Of a stretch of DNA of 64,000 nt, positions 3,920 through 63,452 are shown one piece after another. Origin of the DNA: Desulfuromonadales bacterium (GTDB lineage: Bacteria; Desulfobacterota; Desulfuromonadia; Desulfuromonadales; BM103); assembly GCA_014860225.1 (NCBI GenBank), contig JACZKE010000035.1:1-64000 (forward strand). The letters are read 5' to 3'. Under the pieces are notes generated by a model, which saw nothing but the letters and a program-made list of their open reading frames with translations, was not told where the DNA came from and ran no database searches. Positions within the stretch are counted from its first letter, which is position 1. The number at the start of each line of letters is the position of its first letter. The translations under genes and the position numbers were made by a program.

Positions 3920-3932
3920 CTGAAAACCTCCC

Positions 3933-4190
3933 GTTGAATCGTTGAATCGTTGAATCGTTGAATCGTTGAATCGTTGAATCGTTGAATCGTTGAATCGTTG
4001 AATCGATTCAACGGGCAAAACCATTTCAACGCGGTGGCTCAGAGATACTGAAAGGCGAGACAAGGGTTTAACCAAAAAATTCTTTTGTTTCTCTCTGCGT
4101 CTCTGCGTCTCTGCGTTGAATAGCGAGTTAGTGGTTTTATCCTTTTTATCCCTGTAAGGAACGGGCGCAGCCCAATCAACGATTCAACAG
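3933..4190. repeat. Composite repeat with (GTTGAATC)9 array, copy 2
   Basis: Nine exact tandem copies of GTTGAATC (3933-4004) are followed by its reverse complement GATTCAAC (4005-4012). Then comes the same palindromic unit as copy 1, and a tail containing GTTTTATCC, CCTGTAAGGAACGGGCG and CAATCAACGATTCAACAG. It fills the gap upstream of purH. The octamer is stop-free in all three minus-strand frames, which produces the false N-terminal extension of purH. Confidence 0.92.
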
Positions 4191-6829: not shown

Positions 6830-6910
6830 ACACCGCAGCCAATCTTTTAGGCTGTTGACTAGGAACCGGACTATTCATAAGCCGGCTATCCGCAAGTTTA
6901 AATCTGAACC

Positions 6911-7005
<95 letters not shown>

Positions 7006-7041
7006 CTGGTCAGCAACGAGCACCCCCGTTAAGCGGGCAAG

Positions 7042-12257: not shown

Positions 12258-12325
12258 AAGGGAAGCCTTTTGTGTTGAATTGTTGATCGCACCTGCGGTG
12301 CTGTTGAATTGATGCCTGCGGCATC

Positions 12326-12600
12326 GTTGAATCGTTGAATCGTTGAATCGTTGAATCGTTGAATCGTTGAATCGTTGAATCGTTGAATCGTTGAAGCGTT
12401 GAAGCGTTGAAGCGATTCAACGGGCAAAACCATTTCAACGCGGTGGCTCAGAGATACTGAAAGGCGAGACAAGGGTTTAACCAAAAAATTCTTGTGTTTC
12501 TCTCCGCGTCTCAGCGTCTCTGCGTTGAATAGCGCGTTAGTGGTTTTATCCCGTTCATCCCTTTTATCCCTGTAAGCAACGGGTGCAGCCCAATCAACCG
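12326..12600. repeat. Composite repeat with (GTTGAATC)8(GTTGAAGC)3 array, copy 3
   Basis: Eight GTTGAATC units (12326-12389) and three GTTGAAGC variants (12390-12413), then the inverted GATTCAAC, then the same ~190 bp palindromic unit and tail as at 3933-4190. It fills the 346 bp gap between nspC and speA. The rest of the gap (12258-12325) shows only short inverted fragments such as GATGCCTGCGGCATC. Confidence 0.92.
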
Positions 12601-13776: not shown

Positions 13777-13877
13777 TTCAACGCGGAGGCGCTGAGACAC
13801 TGACAGGATTTAAAGCATAAAAGCCTTTATTTTGTGATTTTTAGTGCTTCTCGGCGTCTCTGCGCCTCCGCGTTGAA
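13777..13877. repeat. Short palindromic repeat between the two carboxyspermidine genes
   Basis: A 16 bp perfect inverted repeat, TTCAACGCGGAGGCGC (13777-13792) against GCGCCTCCGCGTTGAA (13862-13877), extended inward by GAGAC/GTCTC. It is the minimal core of the composite repeat, without octamers or tail, and nearly fills the 127 bp gap. Confidence 0.88.
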
Positions 13878-15082: not shown

Positions 15083-15207
15083 GGCAAAGCTCCTTCGTAA
15101 TCAGTCTGTCAGAACCCGCTAGCACGGGATTAAACAATTGATCGGGTTCTTTTCTCCCCAACCCGCTACCGTTGTCAACGGAAAAACGGTTTTGTGCCTG
15201 CGGCATC

Positions 15208-15460
15208 GTTGAAGCGTTGAAGCGTTGAATTGGTTTAAACGATTCAACAGTTCAACGGGCGAAGCCCAATCAACGGGCAAAACCATTTCAACGCGGAGAA
15301 TCAGAGATACTGAAAGTCGAGACAAGGGTTTAACCAAAAAATCTTGTATTTCTCTCCGCGTCTCTGTGTCTCTGCGTTGAATAGCGAGTTAGTGGTTTTA
15401 TCCCGTTCATCCCTTTTATCCCTGTAAGCAACGGGCGAAGCCCAATCAACGATTCAACAG
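15208..15460. repeat. Composite repeat, copy 4
   Basis: Two GTTGAAGC units and one GTTGAATT, then the palindromic unit (CAAAACCATTTCAACGCGG through CTCTGCGTTGAATAGCG) and the tail CCTGTAAGCAACGGGCG...CAATCAACGATTCAACAG. It occupies most of the 495 bp divergent gap between the polyamine genes and the ChaN lipoprotein gene. Confidence 0.9.
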
Positions 15461-18316: not shown

Positions 18317-19762
18317 ATGAACCTGAAAAAGCAGGAAGAGTACTTTTCAGACTGGAAACAACGCGAGGAGATCGCTGAAGCGATGCTGCCGATCATCGGC
18401 CGGCTCTACCGCAACCACGGCATTGTCATCACGGTCTATGGACGCAGCCTGGTTCACGGCTCCATGGTGGACATTCTCAAGGCCCATCGCTTCGCCCGGC
18501 AGATACTCGAGAATGAGCTTTCAGTGCGCGACAGTTTTCCGGTCCTGCAGGCGATGGACAACCTTGACCTGGCTCCGGCCCGCATCGATATCGGCAAACT
18601 GACCGTACGCTATCAGGCGCAGGGGCCCGATCATGACGTGGCTGATTTTGTGCGCCGGGAGTTGGCAACCGTCAATACCGGCCAGACATCTTTGCTCAGT
18701 GAACCTCGCGACGTCGTTCTCTACGGTTTCGGCCGCATCGGCAGGCTGCTGGCAAGGATTCTGGTGGAAAAATCCGGAGGTGGAGACAAGCTGCGCTTGC
18801 GCGCCGCGGTGGTCCGCAAGGGGGGGAAAGACGACCTGATGAAGCGAGCCAGCCTGCTGCGTCGCGACTCGGTTCACGGCCCCTTCAACGGCGCTATCAC
18901 CATCGACGAGGAAGAGAATGCAATCATCGCCAACGGCAACATGATTCGCCTCATTTATACCGATGCCCCGGACCAGATCGACTACACCGATTACGGCATT
19001 CAGAATGCCATCCTGATCGACAACACGGGTAAATGGCGCGACCGCACAGGGCTCGGTCGGCACCTGCAGGCCAAGGGCATCAGCAAGGTTGTTTTGACGG
19101 CACCGGGCAAGGGGGATATCCCCAACGTGGTGTTCGGTGTCAACAATCAGCTTCTGACGGATGACGAGAACATTTTCTCGGCAGCAAGTTGCACCACCAA
19201 TGCCATTGTTCCTGTACTGAAGGCGGTCAACGACCGCTACGGGGTCATCAGCGGCCACGTCGAGACCTGCCACGCCTATACCAACGACCAGAACCTGATC
19301 GATAACTATCACGACAAGCATCGTCGCGGCCGCAGCGCCCCACTCAACATGGTCATCACCGAAACCGGCGCCGCCAGTGCGATTGCCAAGGCGTTGCCCG
19401 AGTTGACCGGCAGGCTGACCGGCAACGCGATCCGGGTGCCGACACCCAACGTGTCGCTGGCGATTCTCAATCTGACCCTTGGTGAAAAGGTTAACCGCAC
19501 GGACCTGAACAGCTACTTGCGCGACGTCTCCCTCGACTCGCCGTTGCAGAATCAGATCGACTACACCAATTCCCCGGAAGCGGTCTCGTGTGATTTTGTC
19601 GGTTCGAGCCATGCCGGCGTGGTTGATTCGATCTCAACGATCGTTGCCGGCGACCGGGTTGTCCTGTATGTCTGGTACGACAATGAATTCGGTTACAGCA
19701 GCCAGGTGGTGCGGCTGGTGCAGAACTTGGCGGGGTTGGAGTTGCCGGTATTGCCTTTTTAG
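18317..19762 (+). CDS. gap: Glyceraldehyde-3-phosphate dehydrogenase, long form
   Basis: 481 residues, about 130-140 longer than ordinary GAPDH. Residues 1-130 form an N-terminal extension found in the long GAPDH subfamily (also known in Pseudomonas and Vibrio). The NAD motif YGFGRIGRL begins near 136, and the catalytic cysteine is Cys292 in SAASCTTNAIVPV. GHVETCHAYTNDQN, GRSAPLNMVITETGAASA and WYDNEFGYSSQV follow. ATG preceded by GGAAGGG. It oxidises glyceraldehyde 3-phosphate or runs in reverse in gluconeogenesis. The extension begins MNLKKQEEYFSDWKQREEI and its role is not evident. A palindromic repeat begins at the stop codon. Confidence 0.95.
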   Translation: MNLKKQEEYFSDWKQREEIAEAMLPIIGRLYRNHGIVITVYGRSLVHGSMVDILKAHRFARQILENELSVRDSFPVLQAMDNLDLAPARIDIGKLTVRYQAQGPDHDVADFVRRELATVNTGQTSLLSEPRDVVLYGFGRIGRLLARILVEKSGGGDKLRLRAAVVRKGGKDDLMKRASLLRRDSVHGPFNGAITIDEEENAIIANGNMIRLIYTDAPDQIDYTDYGIQNAILIDNTGKWRDRTGLGRHLQAKGISKVVLTAPGKGDIPNVVFGVNNQLLTDDENIFSAASCTTNAIVPVLKAVNDRYGVISGHVETCHAYTNDQNLIDNYHDKHRRGRSAPLNMVITETGAASAIAKALPELTGRLTGNAIRVPTPNVSLAILNLTLGEKVNRTDLNSYLRDVSLDSPLQNQIDYTNSPEAVSCDFVGSSHAGVVDSISTIVAGDRVVLYVWYDNEFGYSSQVVRLVQNLAGLELPVLPF

Positions 19763-19907
19763 TTTTCGTCCGGAAACGGCCCTTTTCCGCAATCTCTGCG
19801 TCAATCTGCGGATTTGATTGTGCGGCGTAAAGGACTACGCCTCCGCTCAAATCCTGGATTTCCTTGACCTTGCGAAAAATTGCGCGTTTCCAGATCGAAA
19901 ACTGCGG
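19762..19907 (+). repeat. Near-palindromic 146 bp repeat, copy 1
   Basis: Starts GTTTTCGTCCGGAAACG and ends CGTTTCCAGATCGAAAAC, which are imperfect reverse complements (terminal inverted repeats of about 18 bases). The centre GGATTTGA...TCAAATCC with GCGGCGTA/TACGCC also pairs, so the whole element can fold on itself. An inverted copy, nearly identical in most blocks, is at 63305-63452. It begins exactly at the gap stop codon. The rest of 19908-20025 carries further 'gcgtctcagcgtctccgcg' style repeat sequence and no gene. Confidence 0.88.
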
Positions 19908-21954: not shown

Positions 21955-21971
21955 CCGCACTCTTCTCCCTC

Positions 21972-22034
21972 GCAGCCTATAGGACTATACTGGCCGAAGC
22001 GAAAAGCCGGCTCATGGATAGTCCGACAGACTGC
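21972..22034 (+). repeat. AGTCCGAC-family element, internally deleted copy in rpsU leader
   Basis: 63 bp. Left end GCAGCCTATAGGACTATAC...GGCCGAAGCGAAAA is joined directly to the right end GCCGG.TCATGGATAGTCCGACAGACTGC, with the roughly 100 bp interior seen in the full copies missing. The outermost bases GCAG/CTGC still pair. It would form a hairpin in the rpsU 5' leader. Confidence 0.8.
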
Positions 22035-22073
22035 TCTGGAGATTAATCGTTAAGGAAAGCGAGGTGATTGCAG

Positions 22074-25924: not shown

Positions 25925-25979
25925 CCGAACCGGAAGTTATTACTTGCAGGCAGTTAAATTATAGGTGGATACCGTCCCT

Positions 25980-27944
25980 ATGTCCAAGTTCTTAACCGAG
26001 AAAAAATCATTTTTGCTTCTATGCGGCTGGCTCTTTACCGGATCGCTGATCGCTGTCGCCGTGATTTTTCTTGACCGCAGCATCCACGGACTGCCTGTCG
26101 ATTTTACTCAGTTCTGGCTGCCTGCAATATTTGGTGGCCTTGCCGGCATTCTCTTCGGCCGGTTGAACATCCGCTTGCGCAGCATGAGCCGCAGCCACGA
26201 AGAAAGCGAGAAACACTTTCAATATTTTTGCCATGAAACCCCGGCCATGCTTCATTCGATGGACAGTGAGGGTCGCCTTGTTTACGTCAGCCAGACATGG
26301 CTCGACACCCTCGGTTATCATCGCGAGGACGTGATCGGCAGAGACTTTTTCGATTTAATCGTCGGCGAAGACATCCCGGAGATCAGAGCAAAACATTTTC
26401 AGAGCCTTAGAGATTCAGGTGTAATCAGAGATCACAATTATCAATTGCGCCTGGCCAACGGTTCAGCTATGACAGTTTCCATCTCTGAAGTAGCTCAACG
26501 TGATTTTAACGGTCACCTGACAGAGAGCCTGGCGGTTGTCAACGACCTGACAAACCATCGCGCTTCCGAAGAACGCATTGAACGACTGGCATACTACGAC
26601 ACCCTGACCGGTTTGCCTAATCGTGCCTTGATGAACGACCGTATTCTGCAATCGATGGCCCTGGCCCGCCGTGACAACAGGCAGGTGGGCGTCTTCTTTT
26701 TCGACCTCGACCGTTTTAAACTGATCAATGATACCCAGGGCCATGCCGTTGGCGATTTGGTTCTGCGATCTGTCGCGCAACGCTTAAAAAAATTCATCCG
26801 AGAAGGCGACACCTTTGCCCGCATGGGAGGCGACGAGTTCGTTATTGTGCAGGCCGATCCGAACCATGACCCCAACTTTAGCATCATGGGTCAACGCATT
26901 CTCGAAACTCTGGGGCAACCTTTCCAGGTTGGCAGCCGCGAGTTTTTCACCACTGCCAGTGTCGGCGTAGCGATCTACCCTATTGATGGCGATAACCCGC
27001 AAGCGCTCTTAAAAAGTGCTGATACAGCCATGTATGTCGCCAAAAGCCGTGGCCGTAACAACCTCCAGTATTTCTCAGAGGACATGAATGCCTCAGCAGT
27101 GGCCAAATCCGATCTTGAAAACCGTCTGCGGCACGCACTGAGCAGCGGCGAGTTGCAGCAACATTACCAGCCGCAAGTCAACCTGGCCACTGGCCGTATC
27201 ACAGGAGTAGAGGCTTTACTGCGTTGGTATGACAGCGACGGCAACCTGATCCCTTCGAACCAGATCATCAGCCTCGCTGAAGAAAGCGGGCTGGTTTTTC
27301 CACTTGGCGAATGGGCTTTAAAGACTGCCTGTGCCCAGGCCAAGGCCTGGCAGGACGCTGGATTCCAGCCATTTCGCATGTCCGTCAACCTCTCAGGACA
27401 TCATATCCGTCAGTCCAATTTCATTGACCGCATTGAAACAATTCTAAACGAGACAGGGATCGAGCCCAACACTTTGGAAATTGAACTTGCGGAGAACTCG
27501 GTCATGAGGCATGTCAACGACAGCATCATGGCCTTGACCGACCTGAAAGTTCGCGGCATCAATCTCGCGATCGACAACTTCGGCACAGGGTATTCATCGT
27601 TGCTGTACCTTAAGCACTTCCCGATTCACCGCATCAAAATCGCCCAGGAGTTTATTCACGACATTATTCACAAACCCGACTATGCTGCCATCACCGAAGC
27701 GATTCTGAGCATGGCTCGCAGTTTGAACCTGTCGGTTACCGCTGTAGGTGTGGAGAACCATGCGCAGTTGGAATTTCTACGCAAACGCGGGTGTCTGGAG
27801 GTCCAGGGGCACTTCTTTGGCGCAGCTTTGAGCGCAGATGATATGACGCTCTTTCTCAAAAAGTCCGGAGGCATATTACTGACGGCCAAAGGACTGCAAG
27901 GCAAGCACGAGTCAAGTTTCTTGCAATCCAGGGAAATTCATTAG
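25980..27944 (+). CDS. Membrane-bound PAS-GGDEF-EAL cyclic-di-GMP protein
   Basis: 654 residues. Two hydrophobic helices (about 10-30 and 43-62), a PAS domain (about 75-195), GGDEF (about 205-360) and EAL (about 380-625). The diguanylate cyclase motif GGDEF is intact (283-287), and so is the inhibitory I-site REGD (274-277). In the EAL domain EAL (411-413), NLS, the GVE glutamate (592) and Gln609 are present, but the metal-binding DDFG motif reads DNFG (532-535) and KID reads KIA (553-555). It probably makes c-di-GMP, and phosphodiesterase activity may be weak or lost. ATG 25980 was preferred to GTG 25965, with AGGTGG somewhat far upstream. The stop codon overlaps the start of an AGTCCGAC element. 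Confidence 0.93.
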   Translation: MSKFLTEKKSFLLLCGWLFTGSLIAVAVIFLDRSIHGLPVDFTQFWLPAIFGGLAGILFGRLNIRLRSMSRSHEESEKHFQYFCHETPAMLHSMDSEGRLVYVSQTWLDTLGYHREDVIGRDFFDLIVGEDIPEIRAKHFQSLRDSGVIRDHNYQLRLANGSAMTVSISEVAQRDFNGHLTESLAVVNDLTNHRASEERIERLAYYDTLTGLPNRALMNDRILQSMALARRDNRQVGVFFFDLDRFKLINDTQGHAVGDLVLRSVAQRLKKFIREGDTFARMGGDEFVIVQADPNHDPNFSIMGQRILETLGQPFQVGSREFFTTASVGVAIYPIDGDNPQALLKSADTAMYVAKSRGRNNLQYFSEDMNASAVAKSDLENRLRHALSSGELQQHYQPQVNLATGRITGVEALLRWYDSDGNLIPSNQIISLAEESGLVFPLGEWALKTACAQAKAWQDAGFQPFRMSVNLSGHHIRQSNFIDRIETILNETGIEPNTLEIELAENSVMRHVNDSIMALTDLKVRGINLAIDNFGTGYSSLLYLKHFPIHRIKIAQEFIHDIIHKPDYAAITEAILSMARSLNLSVTAVGVENHAQLEFLRKRGCLEVQGHFFGAALSADDMTLFLKKSGGILLTAKGLQGKHESSFLQSREIH

Positions 27945-28106
27945 GAGGCTGTCGGATTATACGGACCGAAGCGAAAATTTGGATGTTTGAGAACAGATTT
28001 TAGCTCGTTTGCAGGTCTATAGCCGTAGCTATAGAGCAAAAAGGAGCTGAAATATGGGCCGGACAGCCGAATTTGCAGCCGGTTCATGGATAGTCCGACT
28101 GCCTCC
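27944..28106 (+). mobile_element. AGTCCGAC-family palindromic element, full copy A
   Basis: 163 bp. Ends GGAGGCTGTCGGATTAT (27944-27960) and ATAGTCCGACTGCCTCC (28090-28106) are reverse complements at 15 of 17 bases. Inside, CTATAGCCGTAGCTATAG and the surrounding ATTTTAGCTC/GAGCTGAAAT also pair. It carries AAGGAG and an ATG at 28054, opening a 29-codon frame (ends 28143) that starts MGRTAEFAAGSWIVR. No transposase is present. Located between converging genes. Confidence 0.85.
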
Positions 28107-28135
28107 CGGGAGGATCTTGGTTTTTAATCGGGCCG

Positions 28136-30447: not shown

Positions 30448-30602
30448 CATCACACCAACGTTCAACTTTTCTTGAATGTAGGTCACTAATAAATAACGTT
30501 TTTAGTTGCAGCGTCACTTAATTCTCTGGCATGATTAGCCCCTCCTCAGATTCTTAAGCCGTGCCTCTCCCGAAACTCCGGGTGGGTGCATTGAAGATTC
30601 CC

Positions 30603-30767
30603 AGGAGACTGTCGGACTATACGGACCGAAGCGAAAATTTGGATGTTTGAGAACAGATTTTAGCTCGTTTGCAGCTCCATAGCCGTAGCTATAGAGCAAA
30701 AAGGAGCTGAGATATGGACCAAACAGCCGAATTTGCAGCCGGTTCATGGATAGTCCGACAAACTCCT
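30603..30767 (+). mobile_element. AGTCCGAC-family palindromic element, full copy B
   Basis: 165 bp. Ends AGGAGACTGTCGGACTAT (30603-30620) and ATAGTCCGACAAACTCCT (30750-30767). Most of the interior matches copy A exactly, including the GAAGCGAAAATTTGGATG stretch and the CTATAGC-type stem. AAGGAG and ATG (30714) open a frame that starts MDQTAEFAAGSWIVR and runs in frame into the downstream zinc-ribbon gene. Confidence 0.85.
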
Positions 30768-30797
30768 AATGCCAACGATGCGACGATGGAGCCAGTT

Positions 30798-41430: not shown

Positions 41431-41580
41431 AAAGCATGGTAACTATTCAGCTCCCTTGCTCAAAGGCACAGCATGTGGGCTGCAGCTGTTGCTTGCGGGA
41501 AGTTAAGTGACAACGTTGGACGCAGGCAATGGCTACAGACCACAGGCACTCGCTTATGTGCTGAATAGTTACAAAGCATG
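41431..41580. mobile_element. MITE with IS66-like ends and 8 bp target duplication, before larB
   Basis: A 134 bp element (41439-41572) with 13 bp perfect terminal inverted repeats, GTAACTATTCAGC at the left and GCTGAATAGTTAC at the right, flanked on both sides by the same 8 bases AAAGCATG (41431-41438 and 41573-41580). Ends beginning GTAA and 8 bp duplications are features of the IS66 family. No reading frame for a transposase fits inside, so it would be a non-autonomous derivative moved in trans. The right duplication touches the GGAG ribosome binding site of larB. Confidence 0.88.
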
Positions 41581-50605: not shown

Positions 50606-53240
50606 TGAAATACGTCAGCTTTTTCTGAAGTTTTTTGAAGATCGCGGCCATACAATCGTCGCCTCATCTTCTCTGGTTCCGCACAATGACCCGACCCTGC
50701 TCTTTACCAACGCCGGCATGAACCAGTTCAAGGACTGCTTCCTTGGCCAGGAAAAGCGAGCCTACGTTCGCGCCGCATCCTCACAGAAATGTGTGCGTGC
50801 CGGCGGCAAACACAACGACCTGGAAAATGTCGGCCGCACCGCCCGCCATCACACCTTTTTCGAGATGCTCGGCAATTTCTCCTTCGGCGACTATTTCAAG
50901 AAAGAGGCGATTGCCTACGCCTGGGAATTGCTCACTGTCGATCTGGGGATCGACAAGGACCGTCTCTATGTCTCGGTCTACACCGATGACGACGAAGCCG
51001 CCGCCATCTGGAATGAACAGGAGGGGGTCCCGCGCGAGCGGATCTTCCGCTTTGAAGAAGATAACTTCTGGTCGATGGGTGACACCGGCCCCTGTGGCCC
51101 CTGCTCGGAAATCTTTTACGATAACGGACCGGAAGTCGGTTGCGGTTCTCCTGACTGCACCGTCGGCTGTGACTGCGACCGCTACATGGAGATCTGGAAC
51201 AACGTCTTTATGCAGTTCAACCGCCAGCCTGATGGTGAACTGGTGCCGCTGCCGAAGCCGGCCGTTGACACCGGCATGGGCCTGGAGCGGATCACCACGG
51301 TGATGCAGGGCGTCCAATCGAACTATGACACAGACCTGATCCGGGACATTATCGGCTATATCGAACGGCTTTCAGGGAAACGTTATGGTAGCAGCTCTGA
51401 CGATGACGTCTCCATGCGGGTCATGGCTGATCACAGTCGGGCGACCGCATTCCTGATCGCTGATGGCGTCATGCCAAGCAACGAAGGGCGCGGTTATGTG
51501 CTGCGCCGCATCATGCGCCGGGCCATGCGTCATGCCAAGATGCTCGGGTTTGCCGATCCGGTGCTCTACAAGACAGCCGTTTTTGTTCTCGAATTTATGG
51601 TTGATGCTTACCCGCAGGAAGCTGAACGCAAGGGTTTTGTCGCCAAAATCGTCGAGAAGGAGGAGGAGCGCTTTATCCAGACCCTGGACAATGGTCTGCG
51701 CATGCTCAACGAAGAAGTCGAACGGCGCCGCCGACAGCAGTCAACGGTCATCCCCGGTGATGTGCTTTTCAAGCTGTATGACACCTACGGTTTTCCGACC
51801 GACCTGACGGCTGACATCGTTGAAGCCGAGGGCTTCACTGTCGACGAAGACGGCTTTCAGACCTGCATGGAGGAGCAGCGCAAGAAGGCCCGTCAACATT
51901 GGAAGGGGTCCGGTGAAGAAGCGATCGGTACGGTTTATCGCGAGCTGGTTGAGCAGGGCAACAAAGTGAACTTCAGCGGCTATCATGAGTTGCAGACAAC
52001 CAGCCGCATTACGGCGATCCTGCACGATGGTGAGCAAGTCAGCCGGGCCAGAGCCGGTGAACAGGTAGAGATCATCACCGAAACGACGCCTTTCTACGGC
52101 GAATCGGGCGGCCAGACCGGAGATATCGGCACGATCAGCGCGCCTGGTCTCAAAGTCGACATTTCGGAGACCAGAAAACCACTGCCCGAACTGATCGTCC
52201 ACATCGGCCAGGTGAGCGAGGGGACCCTGCAGATCGGCCAGGAGGTGCACCTCACTGTCGACGCTGAGGCGCGCAAGGCAACAGCCTTGAATCATACTGC
52301 GACCCATATCCTGCAGGCTGTTCTGGTCGAGGTGCTTGGCGACCATGTCAAGCAGGCAGGGTCACTGGTTACACCGGATCGCCTGCGCTTCGATTTCAAT
52401 CATTTTTCGGCAATAACCAACGATGAACTGCGCCAAATCGAAATAGAGGTCAATCGACGCATCCGTGAAAACCAGGCTGTGGAAACCCACGAAATGGCCG
52501 CCGATGAAGCGATTGCTGCAGGGGCAACGGCCCTTTTTGGCGAAAAGTACGGTGAACGAGTGCGGGTCGTCAATCTTGGTGATTTCAGCATGGAACTCTG
52601 CGGCGGGACGCATACTGCCGCTGCCGGCGACATCGGTCTCTTCAAAGTCATTCAGGAATCAGGGATTGCCGCCGGTGTCCGGCGCATTGAAGCCGCTACC
52701 GGTGCGCGGGCTCTGAAACTGATGCAACAGCAGCAGGAGTCCATAGGCCGCTTAGCCGGCCTGGTGAAGAGTGAGCCCTCGCAGCTGGAAACCCGTCTGA
52801 CTAAAATGGTGGAACACCAGAAAGAGCTGGAGCGTGAACTGGCCACCCTGGAGAGCCGACTGAAAGCTGTTCAAGCTGATGACATCATGAACAAAATTCA
52901 GGAGATTGACAGCATCAAGCTGCTGGCCGCTATGGTAGAATCGACGGATGGCAAAGGCTTGCGTGATATGGCCGACAAACTGCGCGACAAAATCGGTTCC
53001 GGAGTGATTGCAATAGGCTGCCCCTATGAAGGCAAGGTCAACCTGCTGGTTGCCGTCACTGCCGATCTGACCGGTCAACTGCATGCCGGTAAACTTGTAG
53101 CAGCCCTGGCTGCTGATGTTGGAGGACGCGGTGGTGGCCGGCCGGACCTTGCCCAGGCAGGCGGCAGCCAGCCGGAGCATCTTGCCAGGGCCTTAGGCAA
53201 GGTTGCCGATCTGGTCCGCAGCACTCTTCTTAATGGCTAG
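50592..53240 (+). CDS. alaS: Alanine-tRNA ligase
   Basis: 882 residues. The class II catalytic core starts [20 protein letters not shown] and has [16 protein letters not shown] and SYDTDLI-like [11 protein letters not shown]; the editing domain has [12 protein letters not shown] and later [16 protein letters not shown] with metal His/Cys; the C-Ala DHHA1 part has [15 protein letters not shown]. It charges tRNA-Ala and clears mischarged Ser/Gly. ATG 50592 lies inside recX; an upstream TTG is possible. A truncated AGTCCGAC repeat follows the stop directly. Confidence 0.97.
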
Positions 53241-53274
53241 CAGTCTGCCGTCCCGTATAGTCCGACAGCCTGCC
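53240..53274 (-). repeat. AGTCCGAC-family element, truncated copy after alaS
   Basis: CCGTCCCGTATAGTCCGACA...GCCTGC, read on the minus strand, matches the left end of the full elements. The outer bases GCAG (53240-53243) and CTGC (53270-53273) still pair. It starts at the last base of the alaS stop codon. The remaining 116 bases to hslV show no repeat. Confidence 0.65.
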
Positions 53275-53390
53275 AGAAAAAACACACTCTGACGCGCTGC
53301 TTTGCTACAATTGCAGCATATGGTTGGAAACGCGGGATGTGAGCCGTTATTGCTCGTAGGGTTACAGAAGACTTTGATAAGAGGTTCAAG

Positions 53391-63304: not shown

Positions 63305-63452
63305 CGGCACAGTTTTCGATCTGGACACGAGCAATTTTTCGTAAGGTCAACGAAAACAAGGATTTGAGCGGAGGCGTAGTCCCTTACGCCGCACAATCAA
63401 ATCCGCCGATTGACGCAGAAATTGCGGAAAAGGGCCGTTTCAGGACGAAAAC
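63305..63452 (-). repeat. Near-palindromic ~148 bp repeat, copy 2 (inverted)
   Basis: The reverse complement begins GTTTTCGTCCTGAAACG and ends CAGATCGAAAACTG, matching 19762-19907 in nearly every block (for example GCGGATTTGATTGTGCGGCG). It lies between the lipoprotein gene and dapA. The remaining parts of this 270 bp gap show no gene or clear promoter. Confidence 0.88.

Follow-up and report, generated by a model that had tools for sequence, protein, structure and literature searches.

ERIC, Correia and RUP are long imperfect palindromes without a transposase gene, with ends and hosts other than those of the repeat described in this study. REPIN/RAYT systems consist of inverted paired units in high copy; unlike these, the present repeat has no consistently linked RAYT gene, and its ends are of the DDE type. 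In the available part of PMC10969869, ERIC, Correia and RUP are named as types of MITE, and Chunjie is presented as a MITE of Geobacter uraniireducens with tens of copies and size variants. Those Chunjie copies that have ends measure 178-235 bp, and unnamed palindromic multicopy families are also described, as far as the accessible text goes, in G. metallireducens and G. bemidjiensis; all of these were compared with the present repeat by description only. Another close system is IS1272, a member of the IS1182 family and therefore of the same family as the transposase proposed below. According to the available sections of PMC5678879 and PMC4923244, IS1272 replaces stem-loops without duplication. 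Palindromes have a role in the published model, which supposes a cruciform step. The present repeat differs from IS1272 in that its flanks are non-palindromic across 173 copies and a 4-bp target is indicated.

A close likeness was found with ISAzo2-like transposons of the IS1182 family (NF033551), which have the same CTAG-[GC]AG-N-[CT]TGTCGGACT ends, the same G and C classes and the same CTAG at the edge. In the copies seen, these transposons carry a transposase gene within about 1.07-2.1 kb between their ends, whereas the repeat carries no gene, and the two have no similarity past the outer 18 bp. No paper naming this repeat family was found in the literature, which was covered mainly outside subscription journals and in main texts. 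The repeat is read as a new family within a known class of element, the MITEs, and has IS1182-type ends; the covariation along its whole stem is its unusual part. It was not taken as an undescribed kind of functional element, as a sequence-only reading had proposed.

The window is the whole stretch of DNA that was analysed, 64,000 nucleotides in length. The four loci and paired outer bases given by the sequence-only reading are real, and all coordinates were borne out on re-reading the sequence. GGAGGC (27944-27949) pairs with GCCTCC (28101-28106), AGGAG (30603-30607) with CTCCT (30763-30767), GCAG (21972-21975) with CTGC (22031-22034), and GCAG (53240-53243) with CTGC (53270-53273). The consensus of 55 copies aligned from the window's own genome reads CTAG-[GC]AG-N-CTGTCGGACTAT ... 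ATAGTCCGACAG-N-CT[GC]-CTAG, with mirror-image ends. The true unit of about 169 bp extends further out than the interval 27944-28106 given earlier, and two main end classes can be seen, GGAG/CTCC (27944 and 30603) and GCAG/CTGC (21972 and 53240).

The first full-length copy spans 27941-28109 (169 bp including both edge tetranucleotides, GGAG class) and lies on the minus strand, its strand being the alignment orientation with the CCATGAACCGGCTGC arm first. Its unstranded edge tetranucleotides, TTAG on the left (27941-27944) and CCGG on the right (28106-28109), were each taken as a decayed CTAG and as probable target duplication of 4 bp. The TAG stop codon of the open reading frame at 25965-27944 is part of this TTAG. 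Between the edges lie the terminal inverted repeats, at 27945-27960 on the plus strand (GAGGCTGTCGGATTAT) and at 28090-28105 on the minus strand (ATAGTCCGACTGCCTC as read on the plus strand). The second full-length copy (30601-30769, minus strand, GGAG class) has the edges CCAG and CTAA. Two further copies, both of the GCAG class and without assigned strand, are an internally deleted one of 69 bp at 21969-22037, which has kept both ends and has the edges CTCG and CTCT, and a minimal one of 40 bp at 53237-53276, likewise with both ends preserved, which has the edges CTAG and CCAG. Half copies were seen elsewhere at L067, L068, L078 and L081. In L068 and L081 the sequence ends once more in GGCTGCTAG after about 38 bp, and these two are perhaps deletions between an internal and the terminal GGCTGC. 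The unit as a whole is short (169 bp), multicopy and without a transposase gene, and terminal inverted repeats are present in the aligned copies, as in MITEs generally.

The own genome comprises 68 contigs and 3.94 Mb. BLAST with 27944-28106 gave 49 matches there, 9 of which are reverse-strand echoes, and about 55 copies entered the alignment. Allowing up to one mismatch, this genome has 55 forward and 57 reverse occurrences of the end motif CTAGSAGNCTGTCGGACTATNC, compared to no match of the reversed control pattern either here or across all 58 genomes. Many contigs of the assembly start or end inside a copy of the repeat. The repeat was found in 33 of the 58 genomes searched, the own genome included (E<=0.001), under 11 family codes of the order, and the end motif in 27 of the 58. 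The sole match to an exact end pattern in the named genome collection, outside which the own genome may lie, was a Desulfuromonadales MAG, and no match to the repeat element was found among PLSDB plasmids. Only 3 of the 65 copies with 900 bp on both sides are spanned by an open reading frame. The flanking genes of the 63 copies with a neighbour on each side are tandem in 38 cases, convergent in 14 and divergent in 11, so no strong orientation rule exists for the repeat.

Several other repeats and features were observed. Positions 19762-19904 and 63310-63452 of the window form an inverted pair of another repeat, 93% complementary, and 19857-19891 is a close match to its core. Relatives of the 19762-19904 repeat exist in dozens of places in genomes of the same genus, and at site L005 they host the element of this study. 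Several repeat families that interlock, containing 8-bp tandem units (GTTGAATC) and 'CTCTGCGTCTCTGCG' blocks, occupy 2234-2359, 3920-4189, 12305-12598, 13777-13877 and 15195-15451. In the right flank of copy L319 (G034:C1 near 59943), the copy is abutted by another palindromic repeat, about 130 bp long (ATGGGGACGCACCCCCCATGAC...), which is abundant in G072 (more than 30 places), from another genus of the same family code. Positions 6907-7016 of the window contain a TPP riboswitch (Rfam RF00059, 78.5 bits).

At L208, L209, L210 and L214, CTAG[GC]AG..TGTCGGACTT ends lie next to a transposase gene of the IS1182 family or what is left of one, and ends of the repeat's kind were found at only 4 of 30 PF13751 loci in the order's genomes searched. 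L208 lies in the own genome, with 1352 bp between its ends; its transposase lacks the DUF772 part and falls under the NF033551 cut-off. The L209 protein, with the domains PF13751, PF01609 and PF05598, scores above the NCBIfam NF033551 (IS1182) cut-off (325.6 bits vs 270). At the nine distinct places with a close relative of L209, two of which are L208 and L209 themselves, each has at least one such end, and in six of the nine both ends bracket the gene, 1066 to 2118 bp apart. Ends of a related type, CTAG[GC]AGGYTGTTGAAAA, were observed beside PF13751 matches at L218 and L224 and in a solo palindrome at L260, which suggests further families with the same edge.

The same ends were found on plasmids of alpha-, beta- and gammaproteobacteria, on which 8 IS1182 loci were examined among 15 listed from 2702 matching records. 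The proteins at these 8 loci are 55.7-58.3% identical to L209, and one locus is annotated ISAzo2-like. All 8 carry the pattern CTAG....YTGTC, with at most one mismatch, on one side or more, and 5 of the 8 carry it on both sides. L480 and L483 are of the G class and the remaining examined loci of the C class, and the class was identical at both ends in all five copies with two ends seen. Because the G and C classes also occur on IS1182 transposons, variation at the outer base is a trait of this branch of transposons. Compared with six of the IS copies, the similarity of the element is limited to the outer 18 bp, which are 83-89% identical to the G-class consensus. The sequence-only reading had argued for a selected fold as against a fixed end recognised by a transposase; that opposition finds no support, as the outer 18 bp are IS1182-family ends and the G/C class runs in lineages. 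From sequence comparison, apparently autonomous elements with the same ends as the repeat therefore exist in the order's genomes and on plasmids.

Judging from sequence, the repeat is very probably a MITE that a transposase of the IS1182 family moves in trans, inserting at CTAG and most likely duplicating it. The shared ends, the copy number, the spread, the empty homologous sites and the covariation all lead to the MITE reading. A counterpoint to an IS1182 mover is that a transposase close to L209 (E<=1e-40) was found in just 8 of 136 genomes of the order, compared to the repeat in 33 of 58, and most hosts of the repeat have no close relative of the likely mover. The small share of PF13751 loci with these ends, the lack of the DUF772 part and the low score of the own-genome transposase, and a likeness confined to the outer 18 bp also count against it.

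A REPIN-type element moved by a RAYT (Y1) transposase would also have inverted paired ends and high copy number, with no intact partner seen in the own genome, and one of the six Y1 genes there starts close to a copy. This RAYT-like gene, at L160 (G000:C63:95500-97869), has its ATG at a distance of about 45 bp from a copy that lies at the end of a contig. However, the other five Y1 loci of the own genome have no end within 5 mismatches, and among 30 Y1 loci an end was found only at L131, with 5 mismatches. Moreover, G008 and G010 (87% and 82% complete) contain many copies and no Y1 match, and the ends match IS1182 instead. With the gene at C63 as the single linked case and no co-occurring RAYT, this origin was rejected as exceedingly improbable.

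The edges of the MITE were examined in 173 full-length rows (163-172 bp, duplicates removed), reduced from 257 candidate end pairs through 232; shorter copies were excluded from the covariation counts, and rows labelled Gx_ carry no genome label. CTAG stands at both edges in 82 of the 173. Outside CTAG, pairing, palindromes and longer direct repeats are no commoner in these copies than chance would give. A 6-bp direct match occurs there in one copy, and the base adjoining CTAG is mildly pyrimidine-rich (119/173 on the left, 104/173 on the right). Insertion into pre-existing palindromes was rejected, as the flanks outside CTAG show no palindromes. Among the 91 copies with a non-CTAG edge, one inverted and two direct matches were seen, the direct pairs comparing with 0.73 expected (p 0.16).

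Occupied and empty homologous sites were compared at 21 copies, which indicates past mobility. These 21 come from 33 empty-site listings, of which 12 were set aside, namely nine half-elements (gap 53-54), two that overlap with a copy next to them, and L292, where 16 bp are missing; site L029, with homologues GAGC and AAAC if taken as 4 bp, is not among the 21. At 12 of the 21 sites a homologue has exactly 4 bp between the flanks. An empty CTAG was seen at L124 (one homologue) and at L302 (1 of 4 homologues, which could be an excision footprint), and a homologue of L340 has CTAG beside the right flank plus another 11 bases. At L300 the copy stands between two CTAT edges; three of its eight homologues read CTAT and the other five TTAT. 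A comparison of G034 with G050 provided two spanning sites (L317 and L318, both within the 21), which are hard to interpret. For the plasmid IS copies no empty sites were found.

Replacement of the target, in the manner published for IS1272 (PMC5678879 and PMC4923244, in their available parts), would mean that the element itself brings CTAG and that some 4 bp of target, in many cases CTTG or CAAG, are lost with nothing duplicated. This may be considered by analogy; at 18 of the 21 sites, none of the homologues seen carries CTAG. The other empty homologues read CTTG, CAAG, TTAG, TTAA, GCAG, ATGA, TTGC and so on, and the filled sites mostly CTAG, although the TTAA homologue of L279 adjoins a run of N in one scaffold and is maybe an assembly product. 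The host repeat at L005 has CTTG in 17 of 17 aligned copies, and in the window an unoccupied homologue (41480-41509, minus strand; not part of the element) of the site that is occupied in L090, elsewhere in the own genome, reads CAAG at the target position. Against replacement stand the CTAT edges and homologues of L300, the empty CTAG at L124 and L302, the non-palindromic flanks of the 173 copies, and the low conservation of CTAG elsewhere. CTAG is about ninefold under-represented in the window (11 vs 101 expected) and was conserved in 0.33-0.50 of homologous places at this divergence, compared to 0.48-0.83 for seven other tetranucleotides, in a baseline that pools all loci retrieved and in which repeats weigh. 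As CTAG is both avoided and poorly conserved, it may plausibly have been present in no lineage but the one hit. Target replacement is thus unlikely, and duplication of CTAG is clearly preferred over it. Duplication of a 4-bp target, at a tetranucleotide that is rare, is the most likely origin of the outermost CTAG, and because CTAG is its own reverse complement, the duplication resembles an extra stem. The sequence-only reading had found no target duplication, which is probably wrong, for the CTAG or CTAT edges at L124, L302 and L300 are consistent with a duplicated target.

The fold of 27941-28109 is a single long hairpin (z -9.0 as DNA and -9.6 as RNA), and none of 200 shuffles folded as well, for DNA and RNA each. 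Across the 173 copies, position 5 (G or C) is the same on both ends in 163, compared to 49% expected from the column make-up, and position 8 in 68%, compared to 32%. Smaller excesses of matches occur at positions 9, 12, 14 and 18 (p 0.0005-0.0015), and positions 1-4 (CTAG) have none (p 0.11-0.83). Position 8 covaries in the G class (p 0.02 in the own genome, 0.0002 in others) and shows no covariation in the C class (p 0.29 and 0.46). On the interior tree, where the branch of one kept row (the first L240 copy) is very long, the G/C class changes 8 times, at least 2 of them on starred branches, compared to 52.6 times in shuffles. Since the class tracks the interior tree, there are few well-supported independent switches.

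RNAalifold on all 173 rows gave a consensus of only 11 pairs. The structure used was the fold of the consensus sequence, derived from the same copies that were tested, a problem offset in part by slid and re-paired controls and by half-only trees. This fold has 63 pairs, 38 of which show a double change, compared to 19.3 in shuffles. Three trees were used (interior, left half alone and right half alone), with six slid pairings per tree. Double changes from one Watson-Crick pair to another occurred on 55-64 branches at the true pairs and on 1-8 at the slid ones, and random re-pairings gave means of 2.7-3.6 with a maximum of 17. Double changes of any kind numbered 84-92 at true pairs, compared to 30-49 at slid pairs. 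Divided by part, the CTAG columns had 0-1 co-changes, the 14 end pairs 16-30 and the 45 inner pairs 25-39. The paired change in both arms is therefore real and reaches the inner stem, as the 55-64 compared to 1-8 branches indicate. If the arms matched only because both ends must fit one transposase, with no fold involved, the 16-30 end co-changes would be expected, as would a G/C class that tracks lineages and agrees at both ends in the five two-ended plasmid copies. However, the 25-39 inner co-changes lie beyond the shared 18-bp end, so shared ends alone are insufficient and this explanation is improbable.

The stable fold and strong covariation would also suit a structured RNA gene or cis-regulator that spread as repeats under selection of its RNA fold. 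On the strand analysed, A-C counts exceed G-T counts (210 vs 152, p 0.003; 39 vs 21 on internal branches), and this excess would equal G-U on the other strand. Nevertheless, the bias is slight and may reflect mutation; RNA from the other strand is the less likely cause. No covariance-model match to the repeat was found in Rfam at E<=1, G-U was not above A-C on the analysed strand, and neighbouring genes lie in all orientations. In addition, 439 of the 770 one-sided changes break a pair, compared to 114 that restore one, and this proportion of pair-breaking changes counts against constraint on every copy. A structured RNA is thus very unlikely. Because the bias is opposite to that of an RNA from the analysed strand, the cause of the covariation is placed at the DNA level. 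From the earlier claim of a selected fold in RNA or cruciform DNA, the fold and the covariation are retained, and the RNA on the strand analysed is not.

Templated repair of one arm of an inverted repeat from the other is known as quasi-palindrome correction. In the mechanism proposed here, the element would be a non-coding palindromic transposon of about 161 bp with 4-bp edges. An ISAzo2-like DDE transposase of the IS1182 family would recognise [GC]AGNCTGTCGGAC at both ends and act in trans, and insertion would take place at a CTAG that is not brought in by the element and is most likely duplicated. The arms may stay matched through a DNA hairpin or cruciform in transposition, in line with the cruciform step of the published IS1272 model, or through repair of each copy from its own other arm. 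After insertion, single copies would decay, their edges without compensation. A more tentative proposal, possible though doubtful, is that the whole hairpin with its arms of about 82 bp, and not only the ends, is the unit acted on by the IS1182-type transposase or by the host. If so, those copies able to extrude a full-length DNA hairpin or cruciform would spread, and paired changes would accumulate along the stem in the spreading lineages as parked copies decay.

Under the MITE reading, an unexplained palindrome becomes a mobile element with a named transposase family, and the repeat accounts for many contig ends in the assembly of its own genome. Published work on IS1272 reports stem-loop replacement; for this branch of IS1182-type ends, the present findings suggest use of CTAG, a tetranucleotide that is avoided. 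The copies would also serve as natural material for studying how the arms of a DNA hairpin remain matched during its spread.
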